NCBI GenBank assembly: GCA_902596985.1
Contig: CACJWR010000011.1
Coordinates: forward strand, 1 to 51,553
Source of the DNA: an uncultured Alphaproteobacteria bacterium
GTDB taxonomy: Bacteria > Pseudomonadota > Alphaproteobacteria > Rhodobacterales > Rhodobacteraceae
Length of the DNA: 51,553 nucleotides
Direction: 5' to 3'
In this document: positions 218 to 10,801 of the stretch, one piece after another
Numbering within the stretch: the first letter of the stretch is position 1
How the letters are laid out: each line of letters opens with the position of its first letter
Position numbers and translations under genes: made by a program
The notes under the pieces: model-generated
Told to the model about the DNA's origin: nothing
The model's database searches: none
What the model saw: only the letters and a program-made list of their open reading frames with translations

Positions 218-520
218 CTAAGACTCAGAATTCCAATAAGACTCGAGTAGTTTGTCAGCCAGCTTGTCGAAGTCAATAGGGTATTCACCATCTTTAATTT
301 TTTGTTTAATTCTTTCAACCGCTTCCATATTAATCGAAGGATTTTCAGCCATAACTTTCAATGCCTCTCTAGATTTACTTGTTAATACAGCATCAACCTT
401 AGATCCAGAAATGGTAGAGGGAACAGCATCGTTTGATTTCTCAGACTGCCCTTTGTTTTCTGTAATTACCCTAGAGACATCTACTCTCTGTCCAGTAATA
501 TTTTTTATTGATCCAACCAT
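218..520 (-). CDS. flgM: Anti-sigma-28 factor FlgM
   Basis: FlgM binds the flagellar sigma factor FliA and holds it inactive until it is exported through the finished hook-basal body. The 100-residue product has the usual FlgM layout. A polar, probably disordered N-terminal half is followed by a conserved C-terminal helical region with the segment SREALKVMAENPSINMEAV and then RIKQKIKDGEYPID, which matches the sigma-binding part of the family. The start is supported by AGGAG about 8 bases upstream of the ATG. It follows flgA in the leftward operon. Its target, fliA, is encoded at 7711-8415 in the divergent operon, so both halves of the checkpoint are in this window. Confidence 0.9.
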   Translation of the reverse strand: MVGSIKNITGQRVDVSRVITENKGQSEKSNDAVPSTISGSKVDAVLTSKSREALKVMAENPSINMEAVERIKQKIKDGEYPIDFDKLADKLLESYWNSES

Positions 521-553: not shown

Positions 554-1297
554 TTAATAAATTTTACGAAAAATTGATATTTTTTTCTCACTTTTTACAA
601 ATCCTTCAACAGTTTTATTGCTAGATATATTTTTTGCTAATATTCTATCGCCCTTTGCACCATTACTAAGTGCTATTCCTTCCATTGCAACATAAATTTC
701 ACCGATGTTATTCTCAATTATTATTCTTTGATTTTTATAAACTAGCCAGTCTGGGTTCAAATGAATGGCTTTTAAGATTGACCCCTTTTGCAAGCTTTTT
801 TTAAGGCGTTTTCCTAACACAAGTTTTAAGTCGTCAAAAGCTCCCCTTGAAAGTAATTTGTTTTTATGGGTCAAAATTAAGTCAGCCTCCTCAATTCTGT
901 CACCCTTTTGTTTTGGTTTTACTAGTATAAAGACAGCTTGCGTATTTTGTGATTTGCTCTTCTCGGAGAAATTTTGTGCTAGCTTTATCTTATCTTTTTC
1001 TGGAGACCCAGTTACCTTATTTCTGAAGCTATAGCGCCATGAATTGTTATCCGTACACGTAAGTCTAATTGTTTTCCAAGATTTATCCCTCTTAGAGATA
1101 ACAATCTTATCACTTGAACACCCAGTAAAAACTCTATTTTTCTTTATAACAGGTTGAGCACTTACCCCTTGCTCACTTAACCTTTGAATTATTAAATCAA
1201 CTAAATTTGTACCAGAGATTCTTTCCTGCGAGGATAAACTTTCAATTGTGAAGCTGCACCAAATTGCAATCAGTAGTAACACCCTTTTTATGACCAC
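554..1297 (-). CDS. flgA: Flagellar P-ring assembly chaperone FlgA
   Basis: FlgA is a periplasmic chaperone needed to assemble the FlgI P-ring. The product has an N-terminal signal peptide (hydrophobic LLLIAIWCSFTI) and a C-terminal SAF-like/FlgA domain. In that domain the segment GIALSNGAKGDRILAKNISS, followed by a short beta-strand ending FVKS, is the family signature. I chose GTG at 1297. A strong GGAGGG sits five bases before it and forms the last codons of the preceding gene, whose stop TAA abuts the start, so the two genes look translationally coupled. A TTG at 1309 would place the start codon upstream of that ribosome site. Length (247 aa) is normal for FlgA. Confidence 0.85.
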   Translation of the reverse strand: MVIKRVLLLIAIWCSFTIESLSSQERISGTNLVDLIIQRLSEQGVSAQPVIKKNRVFTGCSSDKIVISKRDKSWKTIRLTCTDNNSWRYSFRNKVTGSPEKDKIKLAQNFSEKSKSQNTQAVFILVKPKQKGDRIEEADLILTHKNKLLSRGAFDDLKLVLGKRLKKSLQKGSILKAIHLNPDWLVYKNQRIIIENNIGEIYVAMEGIALSNGAKGDRILAKNISSNKTVEGFVKSEKKISIFRKIY

Positions 1298-1298
1298 T

Positions 1299-1727
1299 TT
1301 ACCCTCCAAAATAATAAATATTATTTTGTTTATAATTTAGTTGTTCATCTAACTCGAAATCTATACCCTTCATGAGCTTCGATATTTGGTTGATACTTGG
1401 AAGATGGATGGTCTTATCCGCAATCATATAGTTTATATTCTTGTTCCTGAAGGCATGTTTATTGAGCGAAACTATAGCTAACTGAAGAAAACTCGTATTC
1501 AAACCACTGCCATCATAGTATTTTTCTATTATTAAGTTTAAACTCTCTCCAGGCAAAATTCTATGTTTGTTAAAATAATCTGGGTCTTGAGCGAACTCAT
1601 TCGATCTATCTGAAAACTCAGAGGCATTGTTGTATTGTAGAACAACAAATGGCTCAGCGCTTAGATAGTTATTAGCTATAAAAGCTTTCAAAAATAAGAA
1701 TAAGAAAAAGTAATTTTTTAGCATCAC
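1299..1727 (-). CDS. Secreted LysM/FimV-N-like protein in the flagellar operon
   Basis: This is a 142-residue product with a signal peptide (hydrophobic residues 5-17, probable cleavage after LSA near residue 24). Residues 56-111 resemble the peptidoglycan-binding LysM-like module at the N terminus of FimV/TspA proteins. They contain ILPGESLNLI, then a region ending NINYMIADKTIHLPS, which corresponds to the FimV pattern 'F..gN.N.l..g..L..P'. It starts with ATG overlapping the flgT stop by four bases, and its last codons form the ribosome site of flgA, so it is translated between FlgT and FlgA. Vibrio flgOPT loci place FlgO nearby, but this protein does not look like FlgO. A role in anchoring the H-ring/P-ring to peptidoglycan is inference only. 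Confidence 0.75.
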   Translation of the reverse strand: MMLKNYFFLFLFLKAFIANNYLSAEPFVVLQYNNASEFSDRSNEFAQDPDYFNKHRILPGESLNLIIEKYYDGSGLNTSFLQLAIVSLNKHAFRNKNINYMIADKTIHLPSINQISKLMKGIDFELDEQLNYKQNNIYYFGG

Positions 1728-2860
1728 ATACTACCTAAAAATTGAATTGATTTTCCATTTAGTTTATTCAACTCTAAAGAGCTATTTAACGGAAGTAGGA
1801 TTGATTTGTTTTCTAAAACCTGGTCTACTCTCAATATATTAAAAGGCGTTTGTTCACCTTTGGTAACTGCTAAGGCAGATAACTTTATTCCATGCCTTTT
1901 TCCTAAGGGGACTTCTATTTTTCCATTTTTTACTGCTATCATGCTATTAATCTTCCTGCATACAAGATTGTCAGTTATGTCGGCCGCGTGCTCTTTGGCT
2001 GCAACTAAAAGGGGCTCAATAATGTCGCTTTTACTGCTTTTTAATAAAAGATTAATTGTTCTCCAGGGGCCACCAGACTTAAATAGAGCTTCAATAGATT
2101 TATTCTTGGAAAACGAAAGGGAGTAGGAACTACCTTCATAAATTTCAGTGTCGAATTTTATTATAAGACTATTGTAATAAGTAAAACCAACCAATTTCTG
2201 GCGTTCGGAAATTGATATCGATGATACCGCTGCATAGTCTCCGTATCGAGTTCTATCTCTTCCTGAGGTTAGAGAAATGTAATCATAGTCGTCTTTTGTG
2301 GATATAAGCTGATCTTGATCAAGCAGTATAGTAGAGTAATCTGTAAGATTTATGTCAGGTGCAGACTTTATGGAACTCAAAACGCCATTAATCAACTCAT
2401 CAGCAAGTGAATGCACCCAATGGGGTGCGGAGGGATCGATTTCAATTTTTGGTTGATATATGGATAAGCTTTTTAACGCTTTATTATCGCAACCTTTATT
2501 CTTAAGTTGACCAACCGCAGATCTTATTTTGATAACAAAATGCGTATCTGATTTATCTTCTGAAATTATAGTGTAATCAAGTATTTGACTTGATGGTTGT
2601 ACCACTAGGTTTTCCTGGATTGATGTATCGGTATTCACTGCAGAAAACCCGTTAATCTTCGCGCCTCCATGAAGAGCAGCGAGGTAAAGTGCGTCTTCTA
2701 GTGCTCTCCGACGAGAGCTATTAATATTTTCATCATTCTGAATGATGGCTCTCCCTGTCGTTTCTATGAATCTAATGGTGTCTTCTGCGAAAGCCTTGCT
2801 TAATACAACTGAAAAAATAGCTGCAAGGGCAAAAATCATATAAAAAACAAGTAATCTCAT
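1724..2860 (-). CDS. flgT: FlgT-like flagellar H-ring protein
   Basis: FlgT builds the H-ring that surrounds the LP-ring in the Vibrio polar motor and is needed to place the T-ring and stators. The product is 378 aa, the same size as Vibrio FlgT. It has a signal peptide ending near KAFAE. The N-terminal domain starts FIETTGRAIIQ and continues through RRRALEDALYLAALHGGAKI to a QENLVVQPSSQILDY segment, the FlgT-N pattern. A middle domain follows, then a C-terminal domain with VPLGKRHGIKLSALAVTKG, which matches the FlgT-C 'LG.RHGVK.GD' motif. The gene lies between the FlgP-like lipoprotein gene and the LysM-like gene. I am confident of the family; the ring function is inferred from Vibrio. Confidence 0.8.
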   Translation of the reverse strand: MRLLVFYMIFALAAIFSVVLSKAFAEDTIRFIETTGRAIIQNDENINSSRRRALEDALYLAALHGGAKINGFSAVNTDTSIQENLVVQPSSQILDYTIISEDKSDTHFVIKIRSAVGQLKNKGCDNKALKSLSIYQPKIEIDPSAPHWVHSLADELINGVLSSIKSAPDINLTDYSTILLDQDQLISTKDDYDYISLTSGRDRTRYGDYAAVSSISISERQKLVGFTYYNSLIIKFDTEIYEGSSYSLSFSKNKSIEALFKSGGPWRTINLLLKSSKSDIIEPLLVAAKEHAADITDNLVCRKINSMIAVKNGKIEVPLGKRHGIKLSALAVTKGEQTPFNILRVDQVLENKSILLPLNSSLELNKLNGKSIQFLGSM

Positions 2861-2878
2861 TTTTACTGCTTTGTTCCT

Positions 2879-3409
2879 TTATGCCACGCTACGTGCTTGT
2901 CTTAGCAAATAGCTTAGCGTGTCCTTATCGATCTCTAATAAAACCTCATAAGTATCACTCCCGGTGGGATTAATCCTAACAGTTCTTGCTCCTCGAATTG
3001 TTCCTGAGACGATACCTCTGAACGTATCATTTTGTACCATCAAGTCGATTACAGTGGTATTACCCTCAACTTTTAAACCATGGATTTGCTCCGCGAGATC
3101 GCGCATTGCAGCCATTCTTGCGGATCTAATTGCCATTAGTCTCTTCTGGTTAGCAGAACGTCCTGGCTGTGATGAAACTACCGCATATCCCATAGCACTT
3201 ATCGTAGGTACATTTGCTACTGATGCATCTAGTACTTCGTTTATAGCAGCCAAATGCGCGGCATCTTCACCTTTATTACTTAAAACATTTAAGGTTGTCT
3301 CTGCACCTTTTTCGTCCAAGTTAGTTAGAAAACTGGACTGACAACCACTTATAATTAAAGCTAATCCAATTGATGGAATAAGCATCTTGATCTTTTTCTC
3401 TTTATTCAT
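2879..3409 (-). CDS. flgP: FlgP-like LPP20-family outer-membrane lipoprotein
   Basis: This is the first gene of the leftward flagellar operon. The 176-residue product has a lipoprotein signal peptide with lipobox ISGC (Cys at about residue 23). An LPP20/FlgP domain follows: KRLMAIRSARMAAMRDLAEQ, then GLKVEGNTTVIDL, then ISGTIRGARTVR-like and a C-terminal strand YEVLLEID. FlgP forms the basal disk in Campylobacter and belongs to the flgOPT set needed for the outer part of the Vibrio polar motor. The ATG has AAGG eight bases upstream. A sigma-54-type promoter on this strand lies 37-51 bases upstream. LPP20 lipoproteins also occur outside flagella, but the flgT neighbour makes FlgP the best call. 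Confidence 0.8.
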   Translation of the reverse strand: MNKEKKIKMLIPSIGLALIISGCQSSFLTNLDEKGAETTLNVLSNKGEDAAHLAAINEVLDASVANVPTISAMGYAVVSSQPGRSANQKRLMAIRSARMAAMRDLAEQIHGLKVEGNTTVIDLMVQNDTFRGIVSGTIRGARTVRINPTGSDTYEVLLEIDKDTLSYLLRQARSVA

Positions 3410-3445: not shown

Positions 3446-3461
3446 TGCATTTTTTATGCCA
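3446..3461 (-). promoter_or_regulatory. Sigma-54 (-24/-12) promoter motif for the flgP-flgT operon
   Basis: Read leftward, the sequence is TGGCATAAAAAATGCA. The invariant GG and GC dinucleotides are separated by exactly ten bases, the diagnostic RpoN spacing. The -12 box is ATGC rather than TTGC. It lies about 40 bases before the flgP start and shares the TGGCAT -24 block with the divergent flhA motif. Confidence 0.6.
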
Positions 3462-3497: not shown

Positions 3498-3513
3498 TGG
3501 CATGATAGTTGCT
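3498..3513 (+). promoter_or_regulatory. Sigma-54 (-24/-12) promoter motif for the flhA operon
   Basis: The sequence TGGCATGATAGTTGCT has GG (3499-3500) and GC (3511-3512) separated by ten bases and a full TTGC -12 element, an excellent match to the RpoN consensus. The predicted start of transcription near 3524 leaves a leader of about 110 bases before flhA. This implies a FlrC/FleR-type activator elsewhere in the genome. Confidence 0.75.
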
Positions 3514-3633: not shown

Positions 3634-5733
3634 ATGGAATTGACAAGAAGTAGTACCTCATTGACCGGCAATCTTTCAGATATTCTTAAATCTGGTATAT
3701 TACCACTAGGTATCATTGTGCTTGTCGCTATGATGGTGTTACCACTTCCAGTCTTTTTGCTAGATGTTTTTTTTGTTTCAAACATTTTGATTTCTTTAGT
3801 GATTTTAATGGTAGCTATGCATACCTTTAGACCCCTCGATTTTTCGAGTTTTCCTAACCTTTTGTTGATAGCAACAGTGCTTAGATTAGCCTTAAACGTC
3901 GCCTCAACGAGAGTAGTATTAGGGCAAGGACATACAGGGAATGATGCTGCAGGCCAAATTATTGAAGCTTTTGGTAACTTCATCGTTTCAGGCAATTACG
4001 CAGTGGGTATTTTTGTCTTCATAATTTTAGTTATTATAAATCTAGTCGTGATAACGAAGGGAGCAGGCCGCGTTTCAGAAGTATCAGCTCGTTTCACATT
4101 AGACGCGATGCCAGGGAAACAAATGGCCATTGATGCAGATTTAAATGCAGGTGTTTTGACCGCTGAAGAGGCTACAAATAGGCGAGAGGAGATAGCACAA
4201 GAAGCCGACTTCTATGGATCAATGGACGGAGCGTCAAAATTTGTTAAGGGTGATGCAATTGCATCTATTTTAATTTTAGCCATTAATATTATCGGTGGAT
4301 TAATCATCGGAATAAGTCAATATGATTTGCCCGTATCTACAGCAGCTGAGACGTATATTCTTTTATCAATTGGGGACGGTCTTGTAGCTCAAATCCCGTC
4401 TTTACTATTAGCAATTTCGACGGCAATCATTGTAACTCGTGTTTCCTCTAAGCAGGATATGGCATCTCATATTGGTGACCAACTCAGCATATCAAGAGCC
4501 TGGATCCCGGTTTCAGCCGTATTGCTCCTAATAGGCTTTGTTCCAGGAATGCCAAATCTACTATTCATTGCATCGGCAATAGTTGCAGCAACTGCTGGGT
4601 TTCTTGCTCGCAGAGTGGAAAGAAAGAAGGAAATTAAAACAGAGGGTGAAAATGAAGATGATAAGATTCAAGAAGAAACTGATGGAGATCAACTCAGATT
4701 AGAAGATGTGACGGACTATTCACCCGTGTCTGTTCAATTAGGTTATGGCCTAGTAGAAATGGTAGATGATGATACAGGTGGCCCTCTTGTTGAACGAATT
4801 ACCGGTATAAGAAAGCAAGTGTCAAAAGCACTCGGTTTTATCATTCCTGCAGTTAGGATTCGAGATGATTTAACCCTGGCATCTAATCAGTATAGAATAA
4901 GAATAGGACAGACTATAGTTGGAGATGATGTTATTTATCCCGACAGAAAATTGGCTATTCCAGGCGATGATACAAACATTAAGTTGGATGGAATTGAGGT
5001 AAAAGATCCCTCCTTTGGAATGGATGCTACATGGATACTTCCTTCTCAGCAAAATGAAGCTGAAGAAAAAGGATACGTGGTTGTAGCTCCTGAGTCTGTA
5101 TTAGCCACGCATTTGAGCCAGATTTTTTATAAGCATTCTGGCAAGTTGATTGGTCAAGATGATGTTCAAACTCTATTAGATAATCTCTCTCAGACTGCTC
5201 CGAGTCTTGTTGAGTCACTAGTTCCTAAATTGGTTCCTCTCCATAATCTTACTGGAGTTTTAAGAGAATTACTTTCTGAGAGAGTACCTATAAGTGATCT
5301 ACGAATTATTCTCGAGTCTTTAGCTGGATTGGTGGGAAAGAATTTAAGTGTGATTGAAACAGCTGAGGCAATTAGACCTAACTTGGCAGGTCTGTTAATA
5401 CAACAGGTTGCTCCTTTGAATAAAGCTCTACCAGTTATCACTTTTAATTCTGAGCTAGAACACATGCTTATAAAGATGGCTAAACAAAACGGAGAGGAAG
5501 GTTTGGTTTTAGATAATGAATTGGCAACAAAGCTAATTTCTAATATCTCTGAGCTTAATCAGAAACTTGTTTCTGAAGGAAATACTGCGGTGCTTGTAGT
5601 TTCACCAAATATTCGAAGACAAATTTCAGGAATAATGCGGCAACACGTAGAGGATTTGATCGTCCTATCATTTACTGAATTGCCAGATAATAGAAAGGTA
5701 AATGTCGTAGCAACTATAGATGGAGGATCTTGA
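3634..5733 (+). CDS. flhA: Flagellar type III export gate protein FlhA
   Basis: FlhA is the central membrane and cytoplasmic-ring subunit of the flagellar type III secretion export gate. The 699-residue length is normal. The N-terminal half (to about residue 330) has multiple transmembrane helices. It carries the FHIPEP-family signature in LLIATVLRLALNVASTRVVL and the loop DAMPGKQMAIDADLNAG, with the conserved Asp residues involved in proton-driven export. After a charged linker near residues 335-350 comes the soluble FlhA-C domain (VQLGYGLVEMV, GIRKQVSKALGFIIPAVRIRD), which binds chaperone-substrate complexes. AAGGAG lies 11 bases before the ATG. It is the first gene of a rightward flhA-flhF-flhG-fliA operon. 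Confidence 0.97.
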   Translation: MELTRSSTSLTGNLSDILKSGILPLGIIVLVAMMVLPLPVFLLDVFFVSNILISLVILMVAMHTFRPLDFSSFPNLLLIATVLRLALNVASTRVVLGQGHTGNDAAGQIIEAFGNFIVSGNYAVGIFVFIILVIINLVVITKGAGRVSEVSARFTLDAMPGKQMAIDADLNAGVLTAEEATNRREEIAQEADFYGSMDGASKFVKGDAIASILILAINIIGGLIIGISQYDLPVSTAAETYILLSIGDGLVAQIPSLLLAISTAIIVTRVSSKQDMASHIGDQLSISRAWIPVSAVLLLIGFVPGMPNLLFIASAIVAATAGFLARRVERKKEIKTEGENEDDKIQEETDGDQLRLEDVTDYSPVSVQLGYGLVEMVDDDTGGPLVERITGIRKQVSKALGFIIPAVRIRDDLTLASNQYRIRIGQTIVGDDVIYPDRKLAIPGDDTNIKLDGIEVKDPSFGMDATWILPSQQNEAEEKGYVVVAPESVLATHLSQIFYKHSGKLIGQDDVQTLLDNLSQTAPSLVESLVPKLVPLHNLTGVLRELLSERVPISDLRIILESLAGLVGKNLSVIETAEAIRPNLAGLLIQQVAPLNKALPVITFNSELEHMLIKMAKQNGEEGLVLDNELATKLISNISELNQKLVSEGNTAVLVVSPNIRRQISGIMRQHVEDLIVLSFTELPDNRKVNVVATIDGGS

Positions 5734-9748: not shown

Positions 9749-10141
9749 ATGATGTCTGAGAAAAAATCAAAAGCTTTAGTTCCAGTTAAGAAAGTTCTTC
9801 CTCCTGCTGTTAGAGGAGCAAAAGATACTAATAAACCATTTGAGCTAGTTAATGGTAACCTTAAGCTAACGTCGAGAGATGAGGTTAGAAGTCTTCTACC
9901 CGATATTTTAGGTAAAGTATTAGCGCGAGTTTGGCTAGACTCAAGTTTTCATAGGGAATTCTCGCAAGATCCACAGAAAACACTAGAGATTAATGGTGTT
10001 TTTCTTCCAGAAAATATGTCTATAGAATTCCAAAAACAAAATACCGATCGGCCGAGAATAGTTGTTTTTGAGCAAAAACCAAATTCAAAGTTTAAACTTC
10101 GAGTATTTTATTTACAGTTAGTGATGATGGCAGGGAGATAG
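9749..10141 (+). CDS. NHLP / nitrile-hydratase-alpha-like small protein
   Basis: This 130-residue cytosolic protein has a basic, probably flexible N terminus. Residues 50-110 match the pattern of the nitrile hydratase alpha-like leader (NHLP) family: LARVWLDSSFHREFSQDP, then KTLEINGVFLPENMSIEF and a closing strand RIVVFEQ. In that family the consensus is a Trp-x-Asp-x-x-Phe helix, a DP turn, 'L...G..lP' and a beta-strand. The C-terminal 20 residues are basic and hydrophobic. There is no Cys anywhere and no Gly-Gly cleavage site. No YcaO, LanM or radical-SAM enzyme is nearby, so a modified-peptide precursor is not supported. The Sel1-protein gene begins at the next base, so the two are co-translated. 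True nitrile hydratase is excluded because the CxxCSC metal motif is missing. Confidence 0.7.
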   Translation: MMSEKKSKALVPVKKVLPPAVRGAKDTNKPFELVNGNLKLTSRDEVRSLLPDILGKVLARVWLDSSFHREFSQDPQKTLEINGVFLPENMSIEFQKQNTDRPRIVVFEQKPNSKFKLRVFYLQLVMMAGR

Positions 10142-10801
10142 ATGCGACATATATGTTTATACAGCTTATTGACGTTATTTTTTTTCTCTAGTTCTTTTGC
10201 TCAGATTACAGAATCAGATCGACTTTTTAAAATGGCCACAGATTTTGTGAAGGAGAAGCGATACGCTGAAGCAGTCTCAATCTTTGAAAAGTTGGCCAGA
10301 AATAATGAGCATGATGCCCAGTATAACTTGGCGTTTTTGATAAATGGTGGTAAAGGAATTACAAAAAATTACAGCGAGGCACTCTTTTGGGCATTTCTAG
10401 CCCACCTTGGAAAGATAGAAAAGGCAGAAGAGCTCACGCAGGATCTAGTAGACATAGTTCCAGAAAAGGTATTAAGGGATGTTAGAGAAAAAGTCCTAGA
10501 ACACTTATTAGTACGCTTTGCTAATAAAGATAGAGCGGTATTGACAGAATTAGGCGATTTTTATTTGCTTATCGTAGATGAGCAAGATTTTGAAAATGCT
10601 TACCTATGGTACAATGTGGCCAGCGCTATAGGAATCGAGAATTCAGGTGACATAAGGGATAAAGTTGAAAAAGAACTAGAACCTGATACCATCGTCAAAG
10701 TGCAATCGGCTTCCAGAAAGCGGTATGAAGAGTTTACTGAAAACAAAGTAATAGAAAATGAAAAGAGAATAAAAACTAAGGAACAAGACTATGAAAGTTA
10801 A
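10142..10801 (+). CDS. Secreted Sel1-repeat protein, possible MotX/MotK-like motor protein
   Basis: This 219-residue product has a signal peptide (hydrophobic residues 5-19, cleavage near SFA-Q). Two Sel1-type helical repeats are visible: EHDAQYNLAFLINGGKGITK with YSEALFWAFLAH, and LTELGDFYLLIVDEQDFE with NAYLWYNVASAIG. The C terminus is a charged helix. Sel1 proteins of this size and export route include MotX of the Vibrio T-ring. Rhizobial motors also use a Sel1-type periplasmic protein. Position next to fliL and flagellar structural genes, plus FlgT/FlgP in the same locus, makes a stator-ring role plausible, but that is inference. The start directly abuts the previous stop. Mature Cys residues are absent. 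Confidence 0.75.
   Translation: MRHICLYSLLTLFFFSSSFAQITESDRLFKMATDFVKEKRYAEAVSIFEKLARNNEHDAQYNLAFLINGGKGITKNYSEALFWAFLAHLGKIEKAEELTQDLVDIVPEKVLRDVREKVLEHLLVRFANKDRAVLTELGDFYLLIVDEQDFENAYLWYNVASAIGIENSGDIRDKVEKELEPDTIVKVQSASRKRYEEFTENKVIENEKRIKTKEQDYES

Follow-up and report, generated by a model that had tools for sequence, protein, structure and literature searches.

A LysM-like gene within a probable H-ring operon of a marine alphaproteobacterium: a candidate link between the outer flagellar ring and the cell wall

How bacterial swimming motors brace against torque is an open question, and it is one that the LysM-like protein described here addresses. Stators hold peptidoglycan; it is less clear whether the outer rings are anchored in the wall by a part of their own. 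In the Vibrio polar motor the outer H-ring contains FlgO, FlgP and FlgT. Campylobacter builds large disks in which FlgP has partners other than those considered here, the FlgP lipoprotein itself being shared with the operon described here. That FlgP basal disk is described in the available part of PMC13023049. The Fla1 flagellum of Rhodobacter (Cereibacter) sphaeroides, according to the main text of PMC7277832, contains both FlgT and FlgP, shows its H-ring in the electron microscope, and was likely acquired from a gammaproteobacterium. In that flagellum FlgT forms the H-ring, FlgT and FlgP each interact with FlgH, and FlgP is required for a step between rod and hook (main text of PMC7277832). 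The same text makes the pair already known in Rhodobacteraceae, and the earlier note on this DNA, which had found them surprising in an alphaproteobacterium, was mistaken on this point. For the polar landmark proteins FimV and HubP, the available part of PMC12918733 describes transmembrane, acidic and TPR regions; peptidoglycan binding by the LysM domains of FimV is reported for P. putida and P. aeruginosa (PMC12918733 and PMC5285504).

The window, by which we mean the whole stretch of 51,553 nucleotides that was analysed, comes from an uncultured member of the Rhodobacteraceae. Like Fla1, it places FlgT and FlgP in an alphaproteobacterium. On the minus strand, flgP, flgT, a 142-aa LysM-like gene, flgA and flgM form one tight run (Table 1). 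This is the operon that the earlier note had drawn, with correct coordinates; four of its genes are named by Pfam, and the LysM-like product matches the FimV_core model alone, below cut-off. Both ends of the LysM-like gene overlap a neighbour: its start, for which there is a second possible ATG at 1724, overlaps the stop of flgT, and flgA in its longest frame begins inside its 3' end. The run flgP-flgT-lysM-flgA-flgM is divergent from flhA-flhF-flhG-fliA in the window's own genus and in three other families, and clusters with a Fla1-like plan are present in its own family. Neither LysM nor FlgO is mentioned in the main text of PMC7277832. The LysM-like gene is the new part of the flgP-flgT operon; the presence of FlgP and FlgT in alphaproteobacteria is not new.

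Table 1. Flagellar genes, protein motifs and promoter-like sites in the window
Feature	Positions	Strand	Evidence
flgM, anti-sigma-28 factor	218..520	-	Pfam FlgM 2.3e-12
flgA, P-ring chaperone	554..1309	-	ChapFlgA 1.7e-21 (Pfam), flgA_cterm 1.4e-24
LysM-like gene, stand-alone FimV/HubP-type, 142 aa	1299..1727	-	FimV_core match below cut-off, constant operon place, dN/dS 0.055
Conserved C-terminal motif NIYYFGG of LysM-like protein	1302..1322	-	alignments A1, A2
LysM-like core, beta-alpha-alpha-beta	1374..1565	-	AlphaFold block pLDDT 75-86; FimV_core match 1374-1481
Conserved motif EPFVVLQY, presumed mature N-terminus of LysM-like protein	1632..1655	-	alignments A1, A2
flgT, divergent full-length FlgT (best reading), 378 aa, signal-like N-terminal helix	1724..2860	-	FlgT_N 4.6e-10
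flgP, LPP20-family lipoprotein, 176 aa	2879..3409	-	Pfam LPP20 6.7e-9; PDB FlgP chain 1.2e-14
Sigma-54-like -24/-12 site TGGCATAAAAAATGC, upstream of flgP	3447..3461	-	one-mismatch match
Sigma-54-like -24/-12 site TGGCATGATAGTTGC, upstream of flhA	3498..3512	+	exact pattern
flhA, flagellar export gene, divergently transcribed	3634..5733	+	FlhA comparisons and trees

Solved flagellar structures make the identity of FlgP clear: its best relatives in the PDB are their FlgP or lipoprotein chains (1.2e-14 for the best, the FlgP chain of 8z5n). Its lipobox cysteine, Cys23, is invariant in all 11 aligned proteins. For FlgT, the profile check proposed in the earlier note gives FlgT_N at 40.3 bits against a Pfam cut-off of 28.8; FlgT_M and FlgT_C are unrecognised by Pfam, whereas a FlgT from another class (L127) has all three domains. 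Sequence searches of the PDB match FlgT structures weakly, at 0.071 with the single sequence and 0.032 with a profile. In an AlphaFold model with a mean pLDDT of 68.7 and a pTM of 0.52, the two best PDB structure matches are both FlgT (8z5n, E 2.6e-18, and 3w1e, E 4.3e-18, over 391 and 399 columns), with the domain arrangement left unsure by TM-scores of only 0.30-0.33. The FlgP and FlgT structures matched (8z5n, 3w1e) are, we assume, of Vibrio origin. On its predicted fold, the best identification of the flgT product is as a FlgT that is divergent but full-length. The window shares FlgP and FlgT homologues and the FlgT fold with the Vibrio H-ring, and differs from it in its LysM protein and in the FlgT_M and FlgT_C regions that Pfam does not recognise. 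An H-ring-like structure is likely, as the earlier note had proposed for this module, given that both FlgP and FlgT are genuine, that FlgT is full-length on its predicted fold, and that the operon is flagellar.

The LysM-like protein has a signal-like N-terminal helix and no cysteine lipobox. Its EPFVVLQY motif is poorly retained in one divergent copy (genome G140), and the NIYYFGG end is shortened in the short forms of the family. The AlphaFold model displays the expected beta-alpha-alpha-beta topology at a whole-model mean pLDDT of 62.3. NCBIfam FimV_core matches the window protein at 8.8e-7, below the model's cut-off, and matches 10 of the 11 aligned family members; in each of the 8 LysM-bearing genomes scanned the model finds a single match, always the LysM-like gene and always below cut-off. 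When six members were scanned singly, five matched at 3.6e-5 or better and the sixth, from G140, at 0.066. No Pfam family, FlgO included, is found in the window protein at E <= 1, and Pfam LysM is found in 3 of the 11 family members and in neither of the two short forms. With the model as query, Foldseek returns a best E of 0.58 and LysM structures only at 1.1 or above; in a PDB search with the family profile, an unrelated SUMO chain (0.0044) comes out ahead of the LysM enzyme LytE (0.025). By general tools applied to sequence and model, the LysM assignment is weak. In a phylum-wide draw, the family profile matches 163 of 398 genomes at E <= 0.01; among the matches listed, most fall within open frames that range from several hundred to 1,800 aa, and we take these for FimV/HubP-like proteins.

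The LysM core is of the same subtype (FimV_core) as that of the FimV/HubP landmark proteins. Unlike these, the family members are short (114-157 aa) and apparently soluble and periplasmic, with no transmembrane, acidic or TPR region, and the window protein falls short of a FimV/HubP assignment in that it is just 142 aa long and FimV_core stays below cut-off in 8/8 genomes. Our search of the open-licence literature found no description of a LysM-like protein paired with FlgT, with the flagellar motor or with the H-ring, and the protein is apparently undescribed.

The earlier note had put the LysM protein in the place of FlgO. No flagellar-type FlgO was found in the 8 alphaproteobacterial genomes, the window's own being 75% complete, which is a difference from the Vibrio H-ring. 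The LysM-like protein, however, has no similarity to FlgO and occupies another position: FlgO adjoins flgP in the three outside-class stretches scanned as controls. FlgO proteins of outside-class loci score 97-150 bits for the FlgO domain PF17680. Replacement of FlgO in the strict sense was accordingly rejected, and on sequence the LysM-like protein is not a FlgO homologue. Matches to the FlgO domain are seen elsewhere in 3 of the 8 genomes, all of the own genus, at 19.9-24.6 bits in open frames of 460-650 aa, and in none of the other five; the match in the window's own genome, a 556-aa frame (L184:607-2277), reads by eye as a cyclase/TPR protein, not as a flagellar FlgO.

The LysM-like gene keeps its place across the class. 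A draw of 385 genomes contained 11 that were FlgT_N-positive, and in all 11 the gene lies between flgT and flgA, ten being recognised by profile and the eleventh (G140) by reading the flgT-flgA gap. That gap holds a 117-aa LysM-like ORF, 17% identical to the window copy, which scores 22.7 bits with a profile of the A2 rows and 15.5 bits with A1, both built without G140. Within the own genus, 15 of 22 genomes, many of them incomplete, carry the gene. All clusters read from three further families have it in the gap separating flgT from flgA, and a fifth family has a divergent version. Of 325 genomes of the window's own family, 23 have FlgP. Five of these 23, the window's included, have the LysM-like gene, and 16 have flgT and then flgA with no LysM match (the frames are broken in one, L180); the remaining two, with flgT at or near a contig end, were left uncounted for LysM. 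Given these 16 genomes, a ring of this kind does not generally need the LysM protein. In Octadecabacter arcticus 238 the operon lies on plasmid pOA238_118 and includes a short, 114-aa form that matches the A2 profile at E 1e-12 and FimV_core at 4.8e-6. This short gene (L191:7114-7455) is absent from the plasmid's gene table as distributed.

Outside the class, the phylum draw yielded 42 FlgT_N-positive genomes, which we infer to be gammaproteobacteria. We examined 37 of them, as 30 small loci and 20 larger stretches (from 19 genomes, 12 of which are also among the 30); in 8 of the 20 stretches (L119, L129, L132, L133, L134, L136, L137 and L138) FlgT was placed by its Pfam match alone, our own FlgT profile being silent. 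None of these 37 of 42 genomes showed a LysM gene next to flgT, and the best match to the A2 profile there, at E 0.29 (8.1 bits), was taken as chance. FlgP was found in 29 of the 30 small loci: flgP and flgT lie on opposite strands in 25 of them and run in the same direction in the other 4. The window's gene order differs from that of most of these loci and from that of the Vibrio H-ring, and the view in the earlier note that it mirrors the Vibrio order is not upheld. Two further genomes of the phylum draw, assigned to the class or the family (G708 and G639), were rejected as FlgT carriers; their FlgT_N scores of 21.8 and 25.3 bits lie below cut-off and were taken as chance, and their stretches have no FlgP, FlgT or LysM match. 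In genome G535, flgT (L116:7501-8382) is cut short near a contig end beside an ORF that by eye resembles an IstB-like transposition ATPase.

Comparison of FlhA bears on where this flagellum came from. Window FlhA shares 46-47% identity with the best-matching FlhA in six outside-class genomes (44% with the second copy present in two of them), versus 36-38% for seven FlgT-less genomes of its own class, three of which belong to its own family. In a tree of 36 rows, the 21 FlgP/FlgT rows form one clade (100/100), which lies beside 8 outside-class rows and apart from the 7 FlgT-less rows. The 14 LysM-bearing rows all fall within a 15-row subclade (98/98) whose other member is the LysM-less L166; this tree uses a simpler model with a long-branch warning, and the place of L166 inside the subclade is poorly fixed. 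Since all 14 LysM rows sit in that subclade, one gain and at most one loss suffice. A 34-row tree made without the outside-class rows needs two LysM changes. A single gain of the LysM gene would be the simplest history. Judged by FlhA, the flagellum is of a type unlike that of the FlgT-less relatives and has probably moved laterally, sitting beside the flagella of another class that we take as gammaproteobacterial.

Between the window and its relative L018, dN/dS is 0.032 for FlgP, 0.055 for the LysM-like protein, 0.085 for FlgM, 0.120 for FlgT and 0.171 for FlgA, several more distant pairs being saturated at synonymous sites. By this comparison of codons, the LysM-like gene is under purifying selection. 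A sigma-54-like site in the flgP direction (TGGC[AC][CT]N5[AT]TGC, the [AT]TGC form having been picked after the window's site was seen) is present in 26 of 27 distinct LysM-bearing regions, 9 of 15 LysM-less ones and both of those left uncounted for LysM; in the flhA direction the corresponding numbers are 27/27, 13/15 and 2/2. In dinucleotide shuffles, 0.54 and 0.53 of the 44 regions had a site in the two directions. The count leaves out L022, L027, L066 and L164, whose stretches lack flhA or flgP; L026, where calls overlap on one strand; L181, whose called ORFs directly abut or overlap; and the repeats L057-L059. In 18 hand-picked regions the three without the flgP-direction site were all LysM-less, a contrast that is weaker over all regions. 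As 9 of the 15 LysM-less regions have the flgP-direction site, it marks the operon, not the LysM gene. The one-mismatch pattern occurs 4 times in the whole window against 5.5 expected by chance; because this is no above-chance frequency, conservation of place is the evidence for the site. Predicted co-expression of the LysM gene with flgP and flgT still holds after the promoter recount.

We consider it somewhat more probable than an even chance that this open-ocean alphaproteobacterium has a flagellum of gammaproteobacterial type (Fla1-like) whose H-ring is encoded by the operon in the window, and that the LysM protein clamps the outer ring to the wall. The operon's proteins would be made together from a sigma-54-type flagellar promoter, and the FlgP lipoprotein and FlgT would build a ring around the LP ring. 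The LysM-like protein would be secreted to the periplasm, where its FimV-type core would bind peptidoglycan and its end motifs, EPxVVLxY and an IYFFGG-like sequence, would attach to the basal body, with FlgT or FlgP as the likeliest partner, thereby clamping the outer ring to the cell wall. Peptidoglycan binding and membership of the ring are inferred from domain type, gene order and shared regulation. The protein is likely a peptidoglycan-binding adaptor of the H-ring/LP-ring, through which the ring, or the assembly of the ring, is probably tied to the wall. More tentatively, it may be a third, peptidoglycan-anchoring H-ring subunit, gained once in marine alphaproteobacterial Fla1-like flagella and taking over anchoring that other parts perform in Vibrio; we hold this to be possible, with the chances slightly against it.

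The order of the genes, with flgA directly after the LysM gene, would also suit an assembly factor that is no lasting part of the ring, one that binds peptidoglycan where the rod crosses it and either assists FlgA in positioning the P-ring or brings in a peptidoglycan hydrolase. The module already has assembly roles, in that R. sphaeroides FlgP is needed between rod and hook (main text of PMC7277832), but flgA is kept in the 16 clusters that have no LysM gene, so FlgA does not need the LysM protein there, and we regard this explanation as rather unlikely. It is more doubtful still that the protein serves as a minimal landmark to mark the pole for the flagellum, in effect a FimV/HubP reduced to its periplasmic LysM part, with the membrane and cytoplasmic parts gone. 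The FimV/HubP type of its core, the lack of any other FimV_core match in 8/8 genomes and the adjoining flhF and flhG would fit such a landmark; yet a protein this short, with no cytoplasmic part, could not bind FlhF or FlhG directly, and it is encoded with H-ring genes. Lateral movement of a flagellum unlike that of the FlgT-less relatives, together with the lack of the gene in L166 inside the LysM-bearing clade, would even allow the gene to be a passenger of the moved cluster with no flagellar role. Purifying selection, the overlap with flgT and the constant place in 11/11 class genomes make this very improbable.

Genes for a reinforced flagellar motor resembling that of Vibrio are present in some marine alphaproteobacteria. 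A ring operon with its own peptidoglycan-binding-type protein, occurring in marine plankton genomes from isolates and from single cells, allows the anchoring of outer rings to be tested directly and offers a gene marker for this motor type in marine genomes.

Other genes near these clusters deserve mention. At 9749-10141 (+) the window encodes a protein of 130 aa that weakly matches an NHLP leader-like domain (TIGR03793, 4.5e-7, below cut-off) and, adjoining it at 10142-10801 (+), a Sel1-repeat protein with a signal-like start. Similar pairs are seen by eye near flagellar genes in L166, L167, L173 and L179, and the two proteins may be motor accessory proteins. Identification of the Sel1 protein as MotX was rejected, its PDB matches being other Sel1 proteins, none of them named MotX. 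MotY_N, of the Vibrio T-ring, matched none of the 8 genomes, and control genomes were equally silent. At L018:10882-11313, after flgM and a 101-aa gene, lies a gene whose product, roughly 140 aa long, has a hydrophobic N-terminus, a coiled coil and DUF2802 just above cut-off, and ORFs of similar size occupy that place in other clusters. In genome G793, the FlgA frame (L168:7523-9097) extends to 525 aa, with four tandem N-terminal units discernible by eye.
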